Positions 17,952-44,849 of a DNA stretch of 56,661 nt are shown here, one piece after another (positions within the stretch are counted from its first letter, which is position 1; every line of letters starts with the position of its first letter). The notes under the pieces are model-generated. The model worked only from the letters and a program-made list of their open reading frames with translations, was not told where the DNA came from and did not search any database. The position numbers and the translations under genes were made by a program. Source of the DNA: a virus; IMG/VR virus record IMGVR_UViG_3300025131_000044, positions 1 to 56,661 of that record; one strand, 5' to 3'.

Positions 17952-17974
17952 AGTGATACTCCGATTATATGTTG

Positions 17975-18274
17975 TGGAGATGGCGGGAGTCGAACCCGCG
18001 TCCTAACAGTTTCAATATAAAGTCATTCACAAGTTTAGTTGATTTCTTTCCTATCAACAAAGTCCGTATTCTTAAATTGTTTTACATCCAATTATGATTT
18101 ACCAATCACGATGGTTCTTTCCGATTATGACACCACCTTATCTTCTATCGGAGTCAAAGGGTGATGAACCTACGCGTTACGCGTAGGCTATTTGTGTATT
18201 ATAATTGTCAGTTAACAATTATGAGTTACTTGCACTCCATATTAAAGGTCTACTAGTCGAAACCAAGCATCCCC
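17975..18274 (-). ncRNA. ssrA: tmRNA (SsrA), one-piece, CCA not encoded
   Basis: About 300 nt. The 5' end GGGGATGCTTGGTTTCGAC and the 3' end GCGGGTTCGACTCCCGC plus CATCTCCA are tmRNA hallmarks. GGGGAUG pairs with CAUCUCC, including the G3-U pair that alanyl-tRNA synthetase reads. After discriminator A the genome reads CAA, so CCA must be added. A hairpin CCTACGCG/CGCGTAGG holds TAA in its loop, as helix P5 holds the tag stop in E. coli. The frame into it reads ...DNYNTQIAYA stop. The resume codon is uncertain. tmRNA rescues stalled ribosomes and tags the product for proteolysis. It starts 3 nt after an upstream gene, so it is probably processed from a longer transcript. Confidence 0.96.
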
Positions 18275-31237: not shown

Positions 31238-31456
31238 TTATCTCTCTAAATCTATTACATCACCAAATGCTTCATCAAACACCTTGATTAAATTTTCATA
31301 ATTACCAGACTTCATATCTGGTAATATCATATCTACATCTAAATCTAATTGTCCACATAACTTACTCGCTAAACCTAATAGATAAAATGCATTACCTTGA
31401 GGACCTGTTAAATCTATTACTTGTTTTCTTGTTGTATCTTTACTTATTATAGCCAT
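31238..31456 (-). CDS. Small acidic protein coupled to HAD phosphatase
   Basis: 72 residues from ATG at 31456 behind AAAGGAG; the longer upstream frame runs inside the neighbouring gene. FYLLGLASKLCGQLDLDVD and NLIKVFDEAFGDVIDLE are helical. Similar short proteins are common in marine T4-like phages, but I cannot name a function. Confidence 0.68.
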   Translation of the reverse strand: MAIISKDTTRKQVIDLTGPQGNAFYLLGLASKLCGQLDLDVDMILPDMKSGNYENLIKVFDEAFGDVIDLER

Positions 31457-31902
31457 TAAAAATCTCCTTTTGCTACTTGAAATGTGGTAAGACCATTTTG
31501 TCTCCACATATCAACTACTTGATTTCTGTCATCAAATACCATATCAATATTATCTTTACCAATACTATCTAACCACATTTTTTTTAAATCTGAATCTTTC
31601 ATATAAAGATGATTTTTTGGTCTCATAATTAGATGGTCAAACCATATATCGTGTTTATTTAACCAATCAATCGTAGCTTGATGTGTTACATCAGAACGAC
31701 CTGATAGTATCCATATTGAATGTGTAGTACTTAGTAATTTTGCCACTTGAACAACAGCATCATTAGGTATATCTAAATCAATATTATCAGGATTAAAGAA
31801 AACATCCCAATCCATTTTACCATTCTTAGTAGCTAAATCTCTTCGTTTATCTATAAGAGCTAGTGTACCATCTAAATCAAATATAACTGTTTTTTTGTTC
31901 AA
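31456..31902 (-). CDS. HAD phosphatase, PseT 3'-phosphatase-like, TTG start
   Basis: 148 residues. The ATG at 31920 precedes the AAAGGAG site, so TTG at 31902 is the likely start. Motif I is VIFDLDGTLA, motif II ILSGRSD, motif IV MVFDDRNQVVDMW. The final RQNGLTTFQVAKGDF matches the C-terminus of T4 polynucleotide kinase 3'-phosphatase domains. No kinase P-loop is present, so only phosphatase activity on nucleic-acid ends or nucleotides is expected. Coupled by TAATG to the next gene. Confidence 0.83.
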   Translation of the reverse strand: MNKKTVIFDLDGTLALIDKRRDLATKNGKMDWDVFFNPDNIDLDIPNDAVVQVAKLLSTTHSIWILSGRSDVTHQATIDWLNKHDIWFDHLIMRPKNHLYMKDSDLKKMWLDSIGKDNIDMVFDDRNQVVDMWRQNGLTTFQVAKGDF

Positions 31903-31925
31903 AATAACTCCTTTATTCATATCTT

Positions 31926-32004: not shown

Positions 32005-32166
32005 ATGATATATAAAATTCTAAAGAAAATACTTAATAGATTATTCGGATATAAATGGATATGTGAACATTGTGCTCGTATTGAATATTGTTCTCAACAA
32101 CCATTTTGTAAACATTGTTGTCATATACATAGAGCTAATGTAAAAATGTTTAGGATTAAAAAGTGA
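32005..32166 (+). CDS. Small zinc-ribbon protein with hydrophobic start
   Basis: 53 residues. An amphipathic start (YKILKKILNRLFGYKW) is followed by CEHC near residue 20, then a Cys in IEYC and CKHCCHIH, a likely zinc-binding cluster. No ribosome site is seen. It is one of the few rightward genes and overlaps the zincin start as GTGA. Confidence 0.55.
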   Translation: MIYKILKKILNRLFGYKWICEHCARIEYCSQQPFCKHCCHIHRANVKMFRIKK

Positions 32167-32522
32167 TTAAATTAAAAGACTTATTAATAGAAGCTGATTA
32201 CTTAAAAGATGCTATGAATAATGGTAAAAAAATATTCAAGCAATTACAGAAGATGTATCCAGATATACCAAAGTTTCCATTAGTATTTAAAAATTTAAAA
32301 GGTAGAGGAACTGGATTTATAACTACAAGAAGAATTGGTGATAAAGATATTCCAATAAAGATGACAGTTGATAGTTCTGGTATGTCATCATATGATGCTG
32401 ATTATGGAGTATGTCACGAATTTGCTCACGCAATATTAGGATATACAAAAGGAAATTTAGGTCATAATAGAGCACACGATAATTTAACATATAAATTAGC
32501 AAAAAAGTTTGGATTGGCATAA
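32163..32522 (+). CDS. Minimal zincin metallopeptidase-like protein, GTG start
   Basis: 119 residues. HEFAHAILGYTKG near residue 85 is an HExxH site, with GHNRAHD 14 residues later supplying a possible third ligand. The start is GTG overlapping the previous stop. The N-terminus (IKLKDLLIEAD) is a leader-like sequence shared in style with the next gene. Function in the phage is unknown. Two other zincins occur at 43 kb. Confidence 0.7.
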   Translation: MIKLKDLLIEADYLKDAMNNGKKIFKQLQKMYPDIPKFPLVFKNLKGRGTGFITTRRIGDKDIPIKMTVDSSGMSSYDADYGVCHEFAHAILGYTKGNLGHNRAHDNLTYKLAKKFGLA

Positions 32523-32523
32523 G

Positions 32524-33633
32524 ATGATACATCTAACTACATTACTAGCAGAATCTAAACTCAAACTTAACATACCTTCCGATATAAAAAAACTCTATAA
32601 ATTATTTAAGAAGAATCGAAAACAACTATTCGTAGTTGGTGGTGCAGTTCGTGATGCTATATTAGGTAAGTCACCAAAGGACTTTGACTTAGCAACCGAT
32701 GCTAAGCCAGAAGAGGTAGAAGCTATAGCTAAACAGGGTGGATTTAAAACAGTTGATGTTGGTAAATCATTTGGTGTGGTTATAGTTAATGGTCACGAAA
32801 TAGCTACATTCAGAAAAGATATTGGTAAAGGTAGAAGACCTGACTCTGTAGATTACACTGATATTAAAGGTGATGTGATGAGAAGAGATTTAACTATTAA
32901 TGCTTTATTCTATGATTTAGGTAAAGGTGAAATTGTAGATTTAGTTGGTGGTATAGCGGACTTAAAGAAAAAGAAAATTAGAACTGTAGGTTCCCCATCT
33001 CAGAGGTTTGATGAAGACCCGCTCCGCAAGCTCCGGGCCGTTAGGTTCGCTGGTAGTGTTGGTGGTAAGATGACTAAAGATACATGGGCCGCATTAAAAA
33101 AAAATTCTGATATATCAGGTGTTAGTGGTGAAAGGATAAGAGATGAGTTTATAAAAGGTATTAAGAAAGCTAAATCAGTTCCAAACTATTTTAAAATGTT
33201 AAAAACATTAGGAATGTTCAAACAAATATTTCCTGGTTTGAGTGTTCTACATGGAAGTCTAAAAACAAATGATTATAAATTACAGATAGCTTATATGTTA
33301 CAAACTAATGGTGCTGATAAAGTTAAAAAGAAATTAAATAGTTTGAAGTATACCAATCAAGAAAATAATGACATATGGTTCTTAATTAAAATATCAAATG
33401 TAAGAGAAGTAATTGATAACTTACCTTCGATTAAAAATCTACAAAAGAATACTAAGTTAACTACATCACAAATTAAAGAATGGGCAAAGATAAACTCTAG
33501 TAAACATATTCTTAAAGTATGGAATTGGAAATTATCTGTTACTGCAGCTGATGCTAAAGCTGAAGGTTGGGTAGGTCAAGGTATTGGAAAATATATGAGA
33601 GAGAAAGAAGAAGAGTTGTTTAATAAGTCTTAA
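32524..33633 (+). CDS. cca: CCA-adding enzyme/poly(A) polymerase family nucleotidyltransferase
   Basis: 369 residues from ATG at 32524, 1 nt after the zincin stop. Class II head domain: LFVVGGAVRDAILGKSPKDFDLATDA (GG, RD, DxD near residues 38-58), RRPDSVDYTD, then RRDLTINALFYD and the neck RFDEDPLRKLRAVRFAG near residue 160. The enzyme adds CCA to tRNA 3' ends. Here a plausible substrate is the phage tmRNA, whose gene stops before CCA. A poly(A) polymerase role cannot be excluded. The C-terminal third is unlike the usual tail domain. Confidence 0.93.
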   Translation: MIHLTTLLAESKLKLNIPSDIKKLYKLFKKNRKQLFVVGGAVRDAILGKSPKDFDLATDAKPEEVEAIAKQGGFKTVDVGKSFGVVIVNGHEIATFRKDIGKGRRPDSVDYTDIKGDVMRRDLTINALFYDLGKGEIVDLVGGIADLKKKKIRTVGSPSQRFDEDPLRKLRAVRFAGSVGGKMTKDTWAALKKNSDISGVSGERIRDEFIKGIKKAKSVPNYFKMLKTLGMFKQIFPGLSVLHGSLKTNDYKLQIAYMLQTNGADKVKKKLNSLKYTNQENNDIWFLIKISNVREVIDNLPSIKNLQKNTKLTTSQIKEWAKINSSKHILKVWNWKLSVTAADAKAEGWVGQGIGKYMREKEEELFNKS

Positions 33634-38283: not shown

Positions 38284-38493
38284 CTATACCATTACATTTT
38301 TTGCGACTGGACCTCTGTCACTTTCTCCAACTTCATAACTAACTTTTTGATTATCTGTAAGAGTTTTGTAACCTTCCATCATTATACTACTCATATGTAC
38401 GAATAAATCTTTATCACCGTTTTCTGGTGTTATGAATCCGTAACCTTTTTTATTGTCGAACCATTTAACGGTTCCTGTTTGTGTCTGTGTCAT
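38284..38493 (-). CDS. Cold-shock domain protein, CspA family
   Basis: 69 residues, full-length CSD: GTVKWFDNKKGYGFITPENG (RNP1 KGYGFI), DLFVHMSSI (RNP2) and GPVAKNV at the end. It binds single-stranded RNA/DNA and melts structure, which could matter with so many structured leaders here. Upstream gap of about 100 nt holds a possible -10 (TATAAT near 38579) and no good -35. Confidence 0.95.
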   Translation of the reverse strand: MTQTQTGTVKWFDNKKGYGFITPENGDKDLFVHMSSIMMEGYKTLTDNQKVSYEVGESDRGPVAKNVMV

Positions 38494-38593
38494 TTTACTT
38501 TTTTACCTTTTGTTGTTTGTTTATCTTGTGTCATCGTATGTCTGTCACACGACCTCTTAAAATTTTCCTACACGAATCATTATAAAATTTTTT

Positions 38594-38992
38594 TCACGAA
38601 ATCGTCCATTGGTTCTCTAACATTTCCTGTCTACTATCAACTGCATTTTTTGCTTCTTTAAGACTACAATTATGTTTTGCTCTGTATTCTTTGATAGCAT
38701 TTATCTTCTTACCTTCTTTTATAAGGACATCTATACCGTCCCATTCACTAATTATCACGCCATCTTTTTTATACTTATTGTAAGTCCTCCACACTCTGTT
38801 TAAACTAGTCATATTGTGACTATCTATCTCATCGTAATCAGTTGTAGCAAATCTCACCATCATACCCCAATCAGAATCAAACAAATTGATTTGTTCAAAT
38901 TCCTCTATGTGTTTTTCCTGTAAGTCAAAATATAGTTTGCATACTTTTTCTATTTTGTGTTTTACTATAATATCAAATGTTTTTTTATCCAT
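38594..38992 (-). CDS. Protein with L7/L12 C-terminal-like segment
   Basis: 132 residues from ATG that overlaps the upstream stop (TAATG). The last 45 residues, KKINAIKEYRAKHNCSLKEA then KNAVD, match the pattern of the ribosomal L7/L12 C-terminal domain (KI-x-IK-x-R-x(4)-L-x-EAK-x-V), the part that recruits translation factors. The first 90 residues are unrecognised. Confidence 0.68.
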   Translation of the reverse strand: MDKKTFDIIVKHKIEKVCKLYFDLQEKHIEEFEQINLFDSDWGMMVRFATTDYDEIDSHNMTSLNRVWRTYNKYKKDGVIISEWDGIDVLIKEGKKINAIKEYRAKHNCSLKEAKNAVDSRQEMLENQWTIS

Positions 38993-39111
38993 TACCCGAC
39001 CAACTTCCATATCCAATATAATATTATGATTACAATCATAATTAACATACTACCACCTACCATCTTCTCACTAAATTCTATTTGGTCTTTTCTTTTACCT
39101 TGCCAACTCAT
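38992..39111 (-). CDS. 39-residue single-pass membrane protein
   Basis: ATG overlaps the phosphoribosyltransferase stop (ATGA) and its own stop overlaps the next ATG (TAATG), so it is fully coupled. Polar first 18 residues, then one helix (MLIMIVIIILYWIWKLV). Confidence 0.65.
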   Translation of the reverse strand: MSWQGKRKDQIEFSEKMVGGSMLIMIVIIILYWIWKLVG

Positions 39112-39518
39112 TTTAAATAATCCTGAATCTCTTCACTCTCTTGTGTCTCCCAAGGATATACTATCCACTCATCTGTTTTTTCATAGCAGAAAAATTCTGG
39201 TTTTACGATTGAATCCTTGTGATAATGCATGGTACATATTATGTTGTGTGGACTATCAAAATCTTTCAATGTATGTCCAGTATCAGCTATATCATCTACA
39301 ACCAATATTTTCTTTCTCGTTACTACTTTTCTATCATAGTAATTCATCAATAATGGCAGTCCTAAACTATGTGATAATGATACTGCTATCGGTAATCCAC
39401 CTCTTGGTAATCCATAGATAGCTCCTATTTCTTCCGTATTTATGTGCTTGACATAGACTGCTATCTTATTAATCATATCATCGTATTCGTCCCAAGATAT
39501 AAATTTTTTATTTACCAT
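39108..39518 (-). CDS. Phosphoribosyltransferase
   Basis: 136 residues. The PRPP-binding motif KILVVDDIADTGHTL (residues 69-83) and the N-terminal IYGLPRGGLPIAV loop identify a type I PRTase, close in layout to xanthine/hypoxanthine salvage enzymes. Base specificity is not visible. Likely nucleotide salvage during infection. Confidence 0.88.
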   Translation of the reverse strand: MVNKKFISWDEYDDMINKIAVYVKHINTEEIGAIYGLPRGGLPIAVSLSHSLGLPLLMNYYDRKVVTRKKILVVDDIADTGHTLKDFDSPHNIICTMHYHKDSIVKPEFFCYEKTDEWIVYPWETQESEEIQDYLK

Positions 39519-43027: not shown

Positions 43028-43438
43028 ATGGCAAATCAACAAAGAACACGATTAATTGAACAAATGTTAGATTATTATGACCTTGACACTGAGGTTATAT
43101 TTTTACCTTCAATACCTCGTCTATTAAATAATATCAACCGTTCTAAAAGAATTAGAAACACTGAGGGAAGTATAACATATGCTGAATATTTATTTGATAA
43201 CGATGTCATATATTTAAATGAAAGTGCTGTGAACTCTAACAGACAATTTATTTTAACTGTACTTCATGAAATTGACCATGCTATAGAAGCTGACGAAAGA
43301 AGTGCTGAACAATTTGAACAAGAATACTTTAATGAGACTGCAACAACTGGATACTATAACAATATATATGAAATTCAAGCTGAAAGATTTGCTGAACAAA
43401 ACTATAATTTCTGGTCAGAAAAACTTAAAAGACTTTAA
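43028..43438 (+). CDS. Minimal zincin, rightward paralogue
   Basis: 136 residues. LHEIDHAIEAD near residue 79 is an HExxH site; EIQAERFAEQNYNFW at the end matches the C-terminus of the convergent gene. A TATTTATT word (43004-43011) precedes it, with a weak GAGAG ribosome site. Function unknown; its pairing with the leftward relative is striking. Confidence 0.72.
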   Translation: MANQQRTRLIEQMLDYYDLDTEVIFLPSIPRLLNNINRSKRIRNTEGSITYAEYLFDNDVIYLNESAVNSNRQFILTVLHEIDHAIEADERSAEQFEQEYFNETATTGYYNNIYEIQAERFAEQNYNFWSEKLKRL

Positions 43439-43845
43439 AACAATTCCATTTTTTTAAATTTATTATACCATTTCTTCCAATTCTGCTGCCCAAACTCTTC
43501 AGCCTCTATCTCATACTTATTATCTTTATACTCATGTTTATTTTGAGATATTTGATAATTCATTTCCCATTCATACATAGCCTTGAATCTTCTCCAGCCA
43601 TATTTCTTTGAATCCATAGCGTGTCTTATTTCGTGAATTATTGTGATTAGAAAGTCTTTTGTTTGACTTTTCTTTATTACTTTATACCGTGTAGATAATT
43701 CCAATGTTCCGGCATCAACATTGTAATGTGCATGGTCTTTCATTGATTTCTGTTTTACTTTGACACTACTTACTTTGTAATGTTTAAATAAAATTGAAAC
43801 CATTTGCCATTTATTTGATTCTGATATAAATTCTTTAATCAACAT
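43435..43845 (-). CDS. Minimal zincin, leftward paralogue
   Basis: 136 residues, same length as its convergent partner. IIHEIRHAMDSKKYG near residue 68 is the HExxH site, and EIEAEEFGQQNWKKW near 111 matches EIQAERFAEQNYNFW of the partner. The genes overlap by 4 nt at their ends. SprT-like or antirestriction-type roles are possible for such domains, but neither is shown here. Confidence 0.74.
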   Translation of the reverse strand: MLIKEFISESNKWQMVSILFKHYKVSSVKVKQKSMKDHAHYNVDAGTLELSTRYKVIKKSQTKDFLITIIHEIRHAMDSKKYGWRRFKAMYEWEMNYQISQNKHEYKDNKYEIEAEEFGQQNWKKWYNKFKKMELF

Positions 43846-44398: not shown

Positions 44399-44608
44399 CT
44401 ATTGTAATTTTATGTCATATTCATTTACATACCAAATAGTATCATTTTCATCAATGACTCTATAATCTTTATCTGGAAAACCTACTGCACCAATCTTGAC
44501 AACAGTATCTTTATAAAGTATTCCTTCTTTAGTCTGTAAATTTGCTAAGACTTTTGCTTTTTTTCCTCTTAACTCTTCTGGCTTTTGGAGGTGTTGATTT
44601 TTTTTCAA
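44399..44608 (-). CDS. Small SH3-like protein, TTG start
   Basis: 69 residues from TTG behind AAGGAA; it overlaps the upstream gene by 80 nt in another frame. GKKAKVLANLQTKEGILYKD, then VVKIGAVGFPDKDYRVIDEN and IWYVNEYDIKL read as a small beta-barrel. The start is the weak point. Confidence 0.5.
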   Translation of the reverse strand: MKKNQHLQKPEELRGKKAKVLANLQTKEGILYKDTVVKIGAVGFPDKDYRVIDENDTIWYVNEYDIKLQ

Positions 44609-44849
44609 TGTTTATTCCTTCTTCTTCATTTTTTTCAACATTATGTTGAGCAACTATTCTTTTGTTTCTTTCATCTACAGTTTCCTGTATTTTTGCACAC
44701 TCTTCTTTACTGAAAACATTGTCATAACCCTCATCCAGACAAATTCTTTCTGTTATATCAGAAATTATTTTATCTCTGACTTCTTTTGCATATAAGTTTA
44801 GACCACCACTTGATTCTAAAACTATATCTATTATGTCTTTAATATTCAT
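44529..44849 (-). CDS. Small helical protein with basic tail
   Basis: 106 residues behind GGAGAAA. Helical N-terminal 70 residues and a strongly basic Ser/Lys tail (RRVKRKKSKSL). Unassigned. Confidence 0.62.
   Translation of the reverse strand: MNIKDIIDIVLESSGGLNLYAKEVRDKIISDITERICLDEGYDNVFSKEECAKIQETVDERNKRIVAQHNVEKNEEEGINIEKKSTPPKARRVKRKKSKSLSKFTD

Follow-up and report, generated by a model that had tools for sequence, protein, structure and literature searches.

What is a CCA-adding enzyme doing in the genome of a T4-type myovirus, and for which RNA would it be made? The question is raised by the stretch of DNA analysed here in full (56,661 nt, henceforth "the window"), a 56.7-kb fragment of a phage genome that was assigned to the T4 type from its baseplate genes, and in which a tmRNA gene lacking CCA and a gene for a CCA-adding enzyme are both found (Table 1). 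An earlier note on this DNA had taken the tmRNA for the main client of the enzyme, within a ribosome-rescue and translation-takeover toolkit; the evidence gathered here points to the phage head.

Table 1. Features of the window discussed in the text (a slash within a peptide marks the putative cleavage site).
Feature	Position	Strand	Remarks
tmRNA gene (ssrA), one-piece	17972..18274	minus	3' end is discriminator A (17975), then CAA (17974-17972)
tmRNA tag reading frame, DNYNTQIAYA and stop	18177..18209	minus	stop codon within CCTACGCGTAACGCGTAGG hairpin
HAD phosphatase, PNKP family (end-healing type)	31456..31920	minus	89.9 bits; divergent neighbour of the peptidase/CCA pair
Small SprT-like HEFAH metallopeptidase, leader MIKLKDLLIE/A	32163..32522	plus	GTG start; directly upstream of CCA gene
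N-terminal MIHLTTLLAE, putative capsid-targeting peptide ending in L-X-E prohead-protease site	32524..32553	plus	from sequence; specificity per PMC9026906
Class II CCA-adding enzyme (tRNA nucleotidyltransferase), 369 aa	32524..33633	plus	catalytic motifs intact
Small HEIRH metallopeptidase-like protein, start MLIKEFISE/S	43435..43845	minus	weaker candidate for targeting peptide
Protein starting MNIKDIIDIVLE, then S after the site	44529..44849	minus	weak candidate for targeting peptide

That the tmRNA is present and ends on a discriminator A followed by CAA, as had been claimed, was confirmed by ARAGORN (17974-18274, minus strand, with the tag listed in Table 1), by Rfam (a full-length RF00023 match of 105.6 bits, E=2.6e-40, the cut-off being 47) and by folding (z-score -3.4, with 0/100 shuffles being equally stable); a tRNA-like domain with G3.U70 (acceptor stem GGGGATG/CATCTCC) and A73, along with the tag reading frame, places the gene in the RF00023 family. 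CCA is not encoded, and the claim that it has to be added holds insofar as some enzyme must add it. The CAA may be a sequencing error for CCA, although CCA is likewise absent from 42 of the 119 other viral tmRNA-type 3' ends (about a third; CAA in 5 of the 42), these ends being pattern sites, some of which may not be whole tmRNAs. The tag terminates in -IAYA and not in the usual -LAA, and an -AYAA tag end is seen in two relatives (G025 and G026). Calling tmRNA genes rare in phages was fair, yet they are unremarkable, being known from 402 of 18,146 phage genomes (PMC9004378); the ones described from Melnitz (PMC9004378) and from Stenotrophomonas, Streptomyces and other phages resemble the present one in being ssrA genes of tailed phages, whereas the Melnitz tmRNA is two-piece and that of the window is one-piece and without an encoded CCA, a common state among viral tmRNA-type 3' ends. 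No further tRNA or tmRNA was predicted by ARAGORN across the 56.7-kb window, in agreement with what had been noticed before, and since the window is but a fragment, the absence of visible tRNA genes carries little weight.

The second gene is, judging by its homology and motifs, a class II CCA-adding enzyme, for which the addition of C, C and A to tRNA (not poly(A)) is predicted, and the previous assignment to the class II nucleotidyltransferases is thereby upheld. Pfam (PolyA_pol, 110 bits; PolyA_pol_RNAbd, 39 bits), the PHROG tRNA nucleotidyltransferase family (203.6 bits) and PDB profiles (CCA-adding enzymes, E~1e-40) all agree, and the head-domain motifs GGxxRD, DxD, RRD and EDxxRxxR are accompanied by the neck domain, with the motif cores (GGAVRD, DFD, RRDLT and ED.LR..R) being invariant across 14 relatives that show 54-82% identity to the window protein. 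The AlphaFold (AF2) model has a pLDDT of 77, falling below 50 for residues 1-12, and its sole significant foldseek matches are CCA-adding and related tRNA nucleotidyltransferases (E~1e-11, with low TM-scores). The ATG at 32524 is backed as the start codon by the sequences of relatives.

Two things escaped the earlier note: the polyprotein relatives described below, and the N-terminus of the enzyme (MIHLTTLLAE/SKLKLNIP), which resembles a capsid-targeting peptide. The gene directly upstream starts similarly (MIKLKDLLIE/ADYL), and both starts have the layout of the T4 capsid-targeting peptide with its terminal L/I-X-E site of the prohead protease; gp21 of T4 cleaves after L/I-X-E (PMC9026906), and the T4 capsid-targeting sequence (CTS) brings foreign proteins into the head (PMC9026906; PMC9958956; PMC3012670). 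Proteins of unlike sequence in related contigs begin with MIKLKxLLxE, and the strict leader motif occurs 10 times each in G004, G006 and G012, against 1.1, 0.6 and 0.5 expected, respectively; in the window it is found in 2 genes against 0.42 expected, which alone is not significant. An L/I-X-E leader common to unlike cargo, as in internal head proteins, is seen as an enrichment in relatives and as two genes in the window. The domain of the upstream HEFAH peptidase is preceded in relatives by VIKLMDILNE/A or MLTFKEYLKE/A, i.e., three different leaders are known for it, each ending in hydrophobic-X-E and mostly standing before alanine. The residues before the GGxxRD motif number 26 (median) in the genome-contig homologues among the matches listed versus 38 in the window's clade, a difference of about one leader in length, and a relaxed form of the N-terminal pattern is matched by 16/70 genome-contig homologues, one of which is a phage-type polyprotein. 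Not every relative has a leader: in L245, L256 and L257, the CCA module begins directly at the methionine, although L245 still has the C-terminal hydrophobic-X-E borders. The T4 late promoter TATAAATA was not used as evidence because its 22 occurrences lie on both strands of an AT-rich window.

Two side observations concern other leader-bearing or peptidase genes. A 299-aa protein of G004 (38325-39224, minus strand; L147 18325-19224) carries the leader MIKLKDLLLE/F, resembles by eye modules of the polyproteins in L228 and L254, and looks, again by eye, ADP-ribosyltransferase-like. In the window, adjacent small zinc-peptidase-like genes lie on opposite strands at 43028-43438 and 43435-43845, the former having weak MPTase-PolyVal and SprT-like matches.

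More distant relatives carry the CCA module as part of polyproteins of about 530 to 2463 aa, its partners being P-loop kinase (AAA_33/zeta-toxin-like), HD, CTP_transf-like (nucleotidyltransferase-like), HAD and ligase-like modules, and the borders between them bear the same kind of site as the leader. Of 46 dereplicated CCA modules, 42/44 have hydrophobic-X-E in the last 10 aa ahead of the module, and all fused cases (42/42) have it in the 12 aa that follow, against a background of 12.6% of 12-aa windows in the same proteins; the 42-case count overstates independence, as the junction sequences are homologous, and when the modules are grouped into 24 looser clusters, no fused case lacks the site at its C border, shuffled junction residues giving one in 43%. 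Standalone CCA enzymes terminate just at the point at which the site stands in fused ones (EELFNKS-stop and AQLFISS-stop versus KFLNE/ and NFLGE/). The same border is seen for the kinase, for the module with PRKPRKKGQHR and for most ligase-like modules, some of the latter being preceded by LLLM instead; the first two are found not only within polyproteins but also as single genes with a leader. The "ligase" has a KxDG motif, and its identity is only tentative since its best fold match, T4 RNA ligase, has E=0.28; a comparison with PDB sequences gave no convincing match for it and none for the NMNAT-like module, whose Pfam CTP_transf_like matches are weak. A 407-aa ligase-like module with an EKLDGQ motif (L191 13020-14240 and the 80 loci L287-L366), often following (L/I)xE/GGAYGH, is very widespread, accounting for 585/600 pattern stretches in viral contigs among the matches listed. 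One contig with a phage-type polyprotein (L367, NZWA01000031.1) has been placed in the bin of a Flavobacteriales MAG, which may hint at a host of the relatives.

The neighbourhood of the CCA module in relatives is that of head morphogenesis. A terminase gene lies downstream in 49/79 loci, always on the same strand, and a portal gene is next in 35; in the clade to which the window belongs, the standalone genes are not adjacent to terminase. The isolate Microcystis phage Mel-JY01 encodes, upstream of its terminase, a related protein that combines a cytidylyltransferase-like and a ligase-like part. In G022, the portal gene is followed by a small core-like gene, the CCA polyprotein, another core-like gene, the S77 protease, a scaffold-like gene and the major capsid protein (the portal, core, scaffold and capsid labels being assigned from sequence and gene order). 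The polyprotein there holds, in one chain with the CCA enzyme, a prohead core segment of gp67 type (L170, 11758-14061; phrog_1064 "prohead", E=4e-5), and the major capsid protein has an LSE site in its N-terminal part. The S77 prohead protease was found in 8/17 and 22/27 searched records, and none was found in the 56.7-kb window fragment.

Taken together, homology, motifs, the common leader, the border sites and head-gene synteny indicate that the window's enzyme bears a head-targeting layout, and we infer that it is probably a head-packaged, protease-released tRNA-repair enzyme of a T4-type myovirus that is injected at the start of infection. Its first ~10 residues would direct it to the prohead core, the leader would be cut after LAE by an S77 prohead protease of the gp21 type, and the mature enzyme would ride in the capsid and enter the cell alongside the DNA, where, from minute zero, it could rebuild or protect the 3'-CCA ends of host tRNAs and of any CCA-less phage tRNA or tmRNA, with CCA ends lost to host nucleases being restored by the enzyme alone or with kinase, phosphatase and ligase-like modules. 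The tmRNA would be a separate gene and one possible client. Since G035 carries 25 tRNA genes without encoded CCA, the enzyme may also have a late role in maturing phage tRNAs. In the relatives, the prohead protease would cut the polyproteins at hydrophobic-X-E into CCA-adding, P-loop kinase, HD, nucleotidyltransferase-like, ligase-like and HAD phosphatase enzymes. The chances seem about even that this amounts to a polyprotein system of tailed phages, wherein the prohead protease doubles as a polyprotein processor that frees RNA/nucleotide-repair enzymes in the capsid, to be co-injected with the genome and to repair tRNA damage before phage gene expression, with the window phage having the split version.

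The best-surviving alternative, albeit an unlikely one, is a CCA enzyme of the ordinary intracellular sort, which would complete the CCA-less tRNAs (and tmRNA) made by the phage during infection, the leader being incidental. Relatives of the enzyme are common among phages, with 460 records, and tRNA maturation or repair is the role usually assigned to phage CCA enzymes (PMC3622015; PMC7824862), as proposed for members of the same family in jumbo and T4-like phages (RaK2 gp031, Aeromonas and Vibrio phages); in the isolates Aeromonas P19 and Vibrio Va1, the enzyme is without the N-terminal extension and surrounded by mostly hypothetical genes, with no annotated head genes adjacent. Some relatives do carry tRNA genes, e.g., the close relatives G004 (Ala and Pro) and G005 (Ala), and CCA is missing from 25/25 tRNAs in G035, from 1/2 in G004 and from one in G005. 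G035 is a 174.75-kb viral contig with these 25 CCA-less tRNA genes and a CCA-less tmRNA (L271, G035:131000-139000) and with the CCA polyprotein elsewhere. Intracellular maturation, however, leaves unexplained the leader common to unlike neighbours, the L/I-X-E border sites, the terminase/portal synteny and the gp67-like fusion, and the first 23 relative loci yielded no tRNA gene.

That the phage produces the enzyme during infection mainly in order to complete the CCA-less tmRNA, within a ribosome-rescue toolkit, is considerably less probable still, in spite of the window tmRNA being CCA-less, the enzyme being intact, and one further record (G089) combining a 3' end of tmRNA type that carries CAA with a CCA enzyme whose N-terminus is similar. 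When relatives of the enzyme were drawn from IMG/VR and their whole records (about 69 distinct ones, mostly fragments) were searched for tmRNA, matches above the cut-off were found in 0/22 records of the first set (about 22-23 records, of which short G007-type fragments are uninformative) and in 4/47 of the second, i.e., 4/69 overall, and two of these four tmRNAs encode CCA, those of G041 and G035 being CCA-less; no tmRNA was found in G004 and G005. Conversely, the PolyA_pol family is encoded in 3/38 viral records chosen by the tmRNA 3'-end pattern and in 1/12 of those with a CCA-less tmRNA end. As co-occurrence is rare both ways, the tmRNA and CCA enzyme of the window do not form a conserved pair, and the tmRNA was rejected as the main client; with this pairing unconserved and CCA-less tRNAs present in some relatives, tRNAs are at least as likely to be the clients. 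The gene context of the enzyme in relatives, being that of head morphogenesis, does not favour a tmRNA-finishing role either, and bacterial hosts possess a CCA enzyme of their own. As regards the toolkit, deformylase (118.9 bits) and a RimK-type ligase (181.7 bits) were recovered, while Smr (16.2 bits against a cut-off of 25.7) and L7/L12 (24.3 against 25.9) fell below their family cut-offs and were dropped. That the modules are structural or scaffold head material, retaining the enzyme fold only as a core protein without enzymatic use, would suit the fusion to the gp67-like core piece and the head-operon position, but is scarcely credible given the invariance of all catalytic motif cores in the 14 relatives and the further enzyme modules that accompany the CCA module.

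CCA enzymes in phages, phage tmRNA, T4 internal proteins and polyvalent proteins are already known. A head-packaged CCA enzyme would come closest to the T4 internal head proteins (IPI, IPII, IPIII and Alt), which likewise bear a short N-terminal L/I-X-E peptide on unlike proteins in a T4-type phage, an S77-family prohead protease being found in relatives; the cargo here, in contrast, would be a CCA-adding enzyme, and the relatives join several enzymes with internal sites. Polyvalent proteins of phages and conjugative elements (Iyer et al. 2017, PMC5512222) are similarly large, multidomain, equipped with conflict-related enzymes and thought to be injected, but it is the CCA polyproteins whose module borders have prohead-protease-type sites, and the window gene itself is standalone, with several domains in one polypeptide being a feature of its relatives. 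Text searches found no mention of CCA in Iyer et al. 2017 (PMC5512222), and neither CCA nor tRNA nucleotidyltransferase in the 2022 follow-up. No report of a virion-packaged CCA enzyme was found in the openly licensed literature, nor one of a phage polyprotein of repair enzymes with prohead-protease-type borders in the literature searched.

If the proposed packaging and injection are true, a widespread and mostly uncultured group of T4-type phages carries tRNA-repair enzymes as virion cargo, and such a phage could withstand tRNA-damaging defences from the onset of infection, ahead of phage gene expression. The hydrophobic-X-E borders would, moreover, provide a sequence rule by which many unannotated head-cargo genes become predictable.
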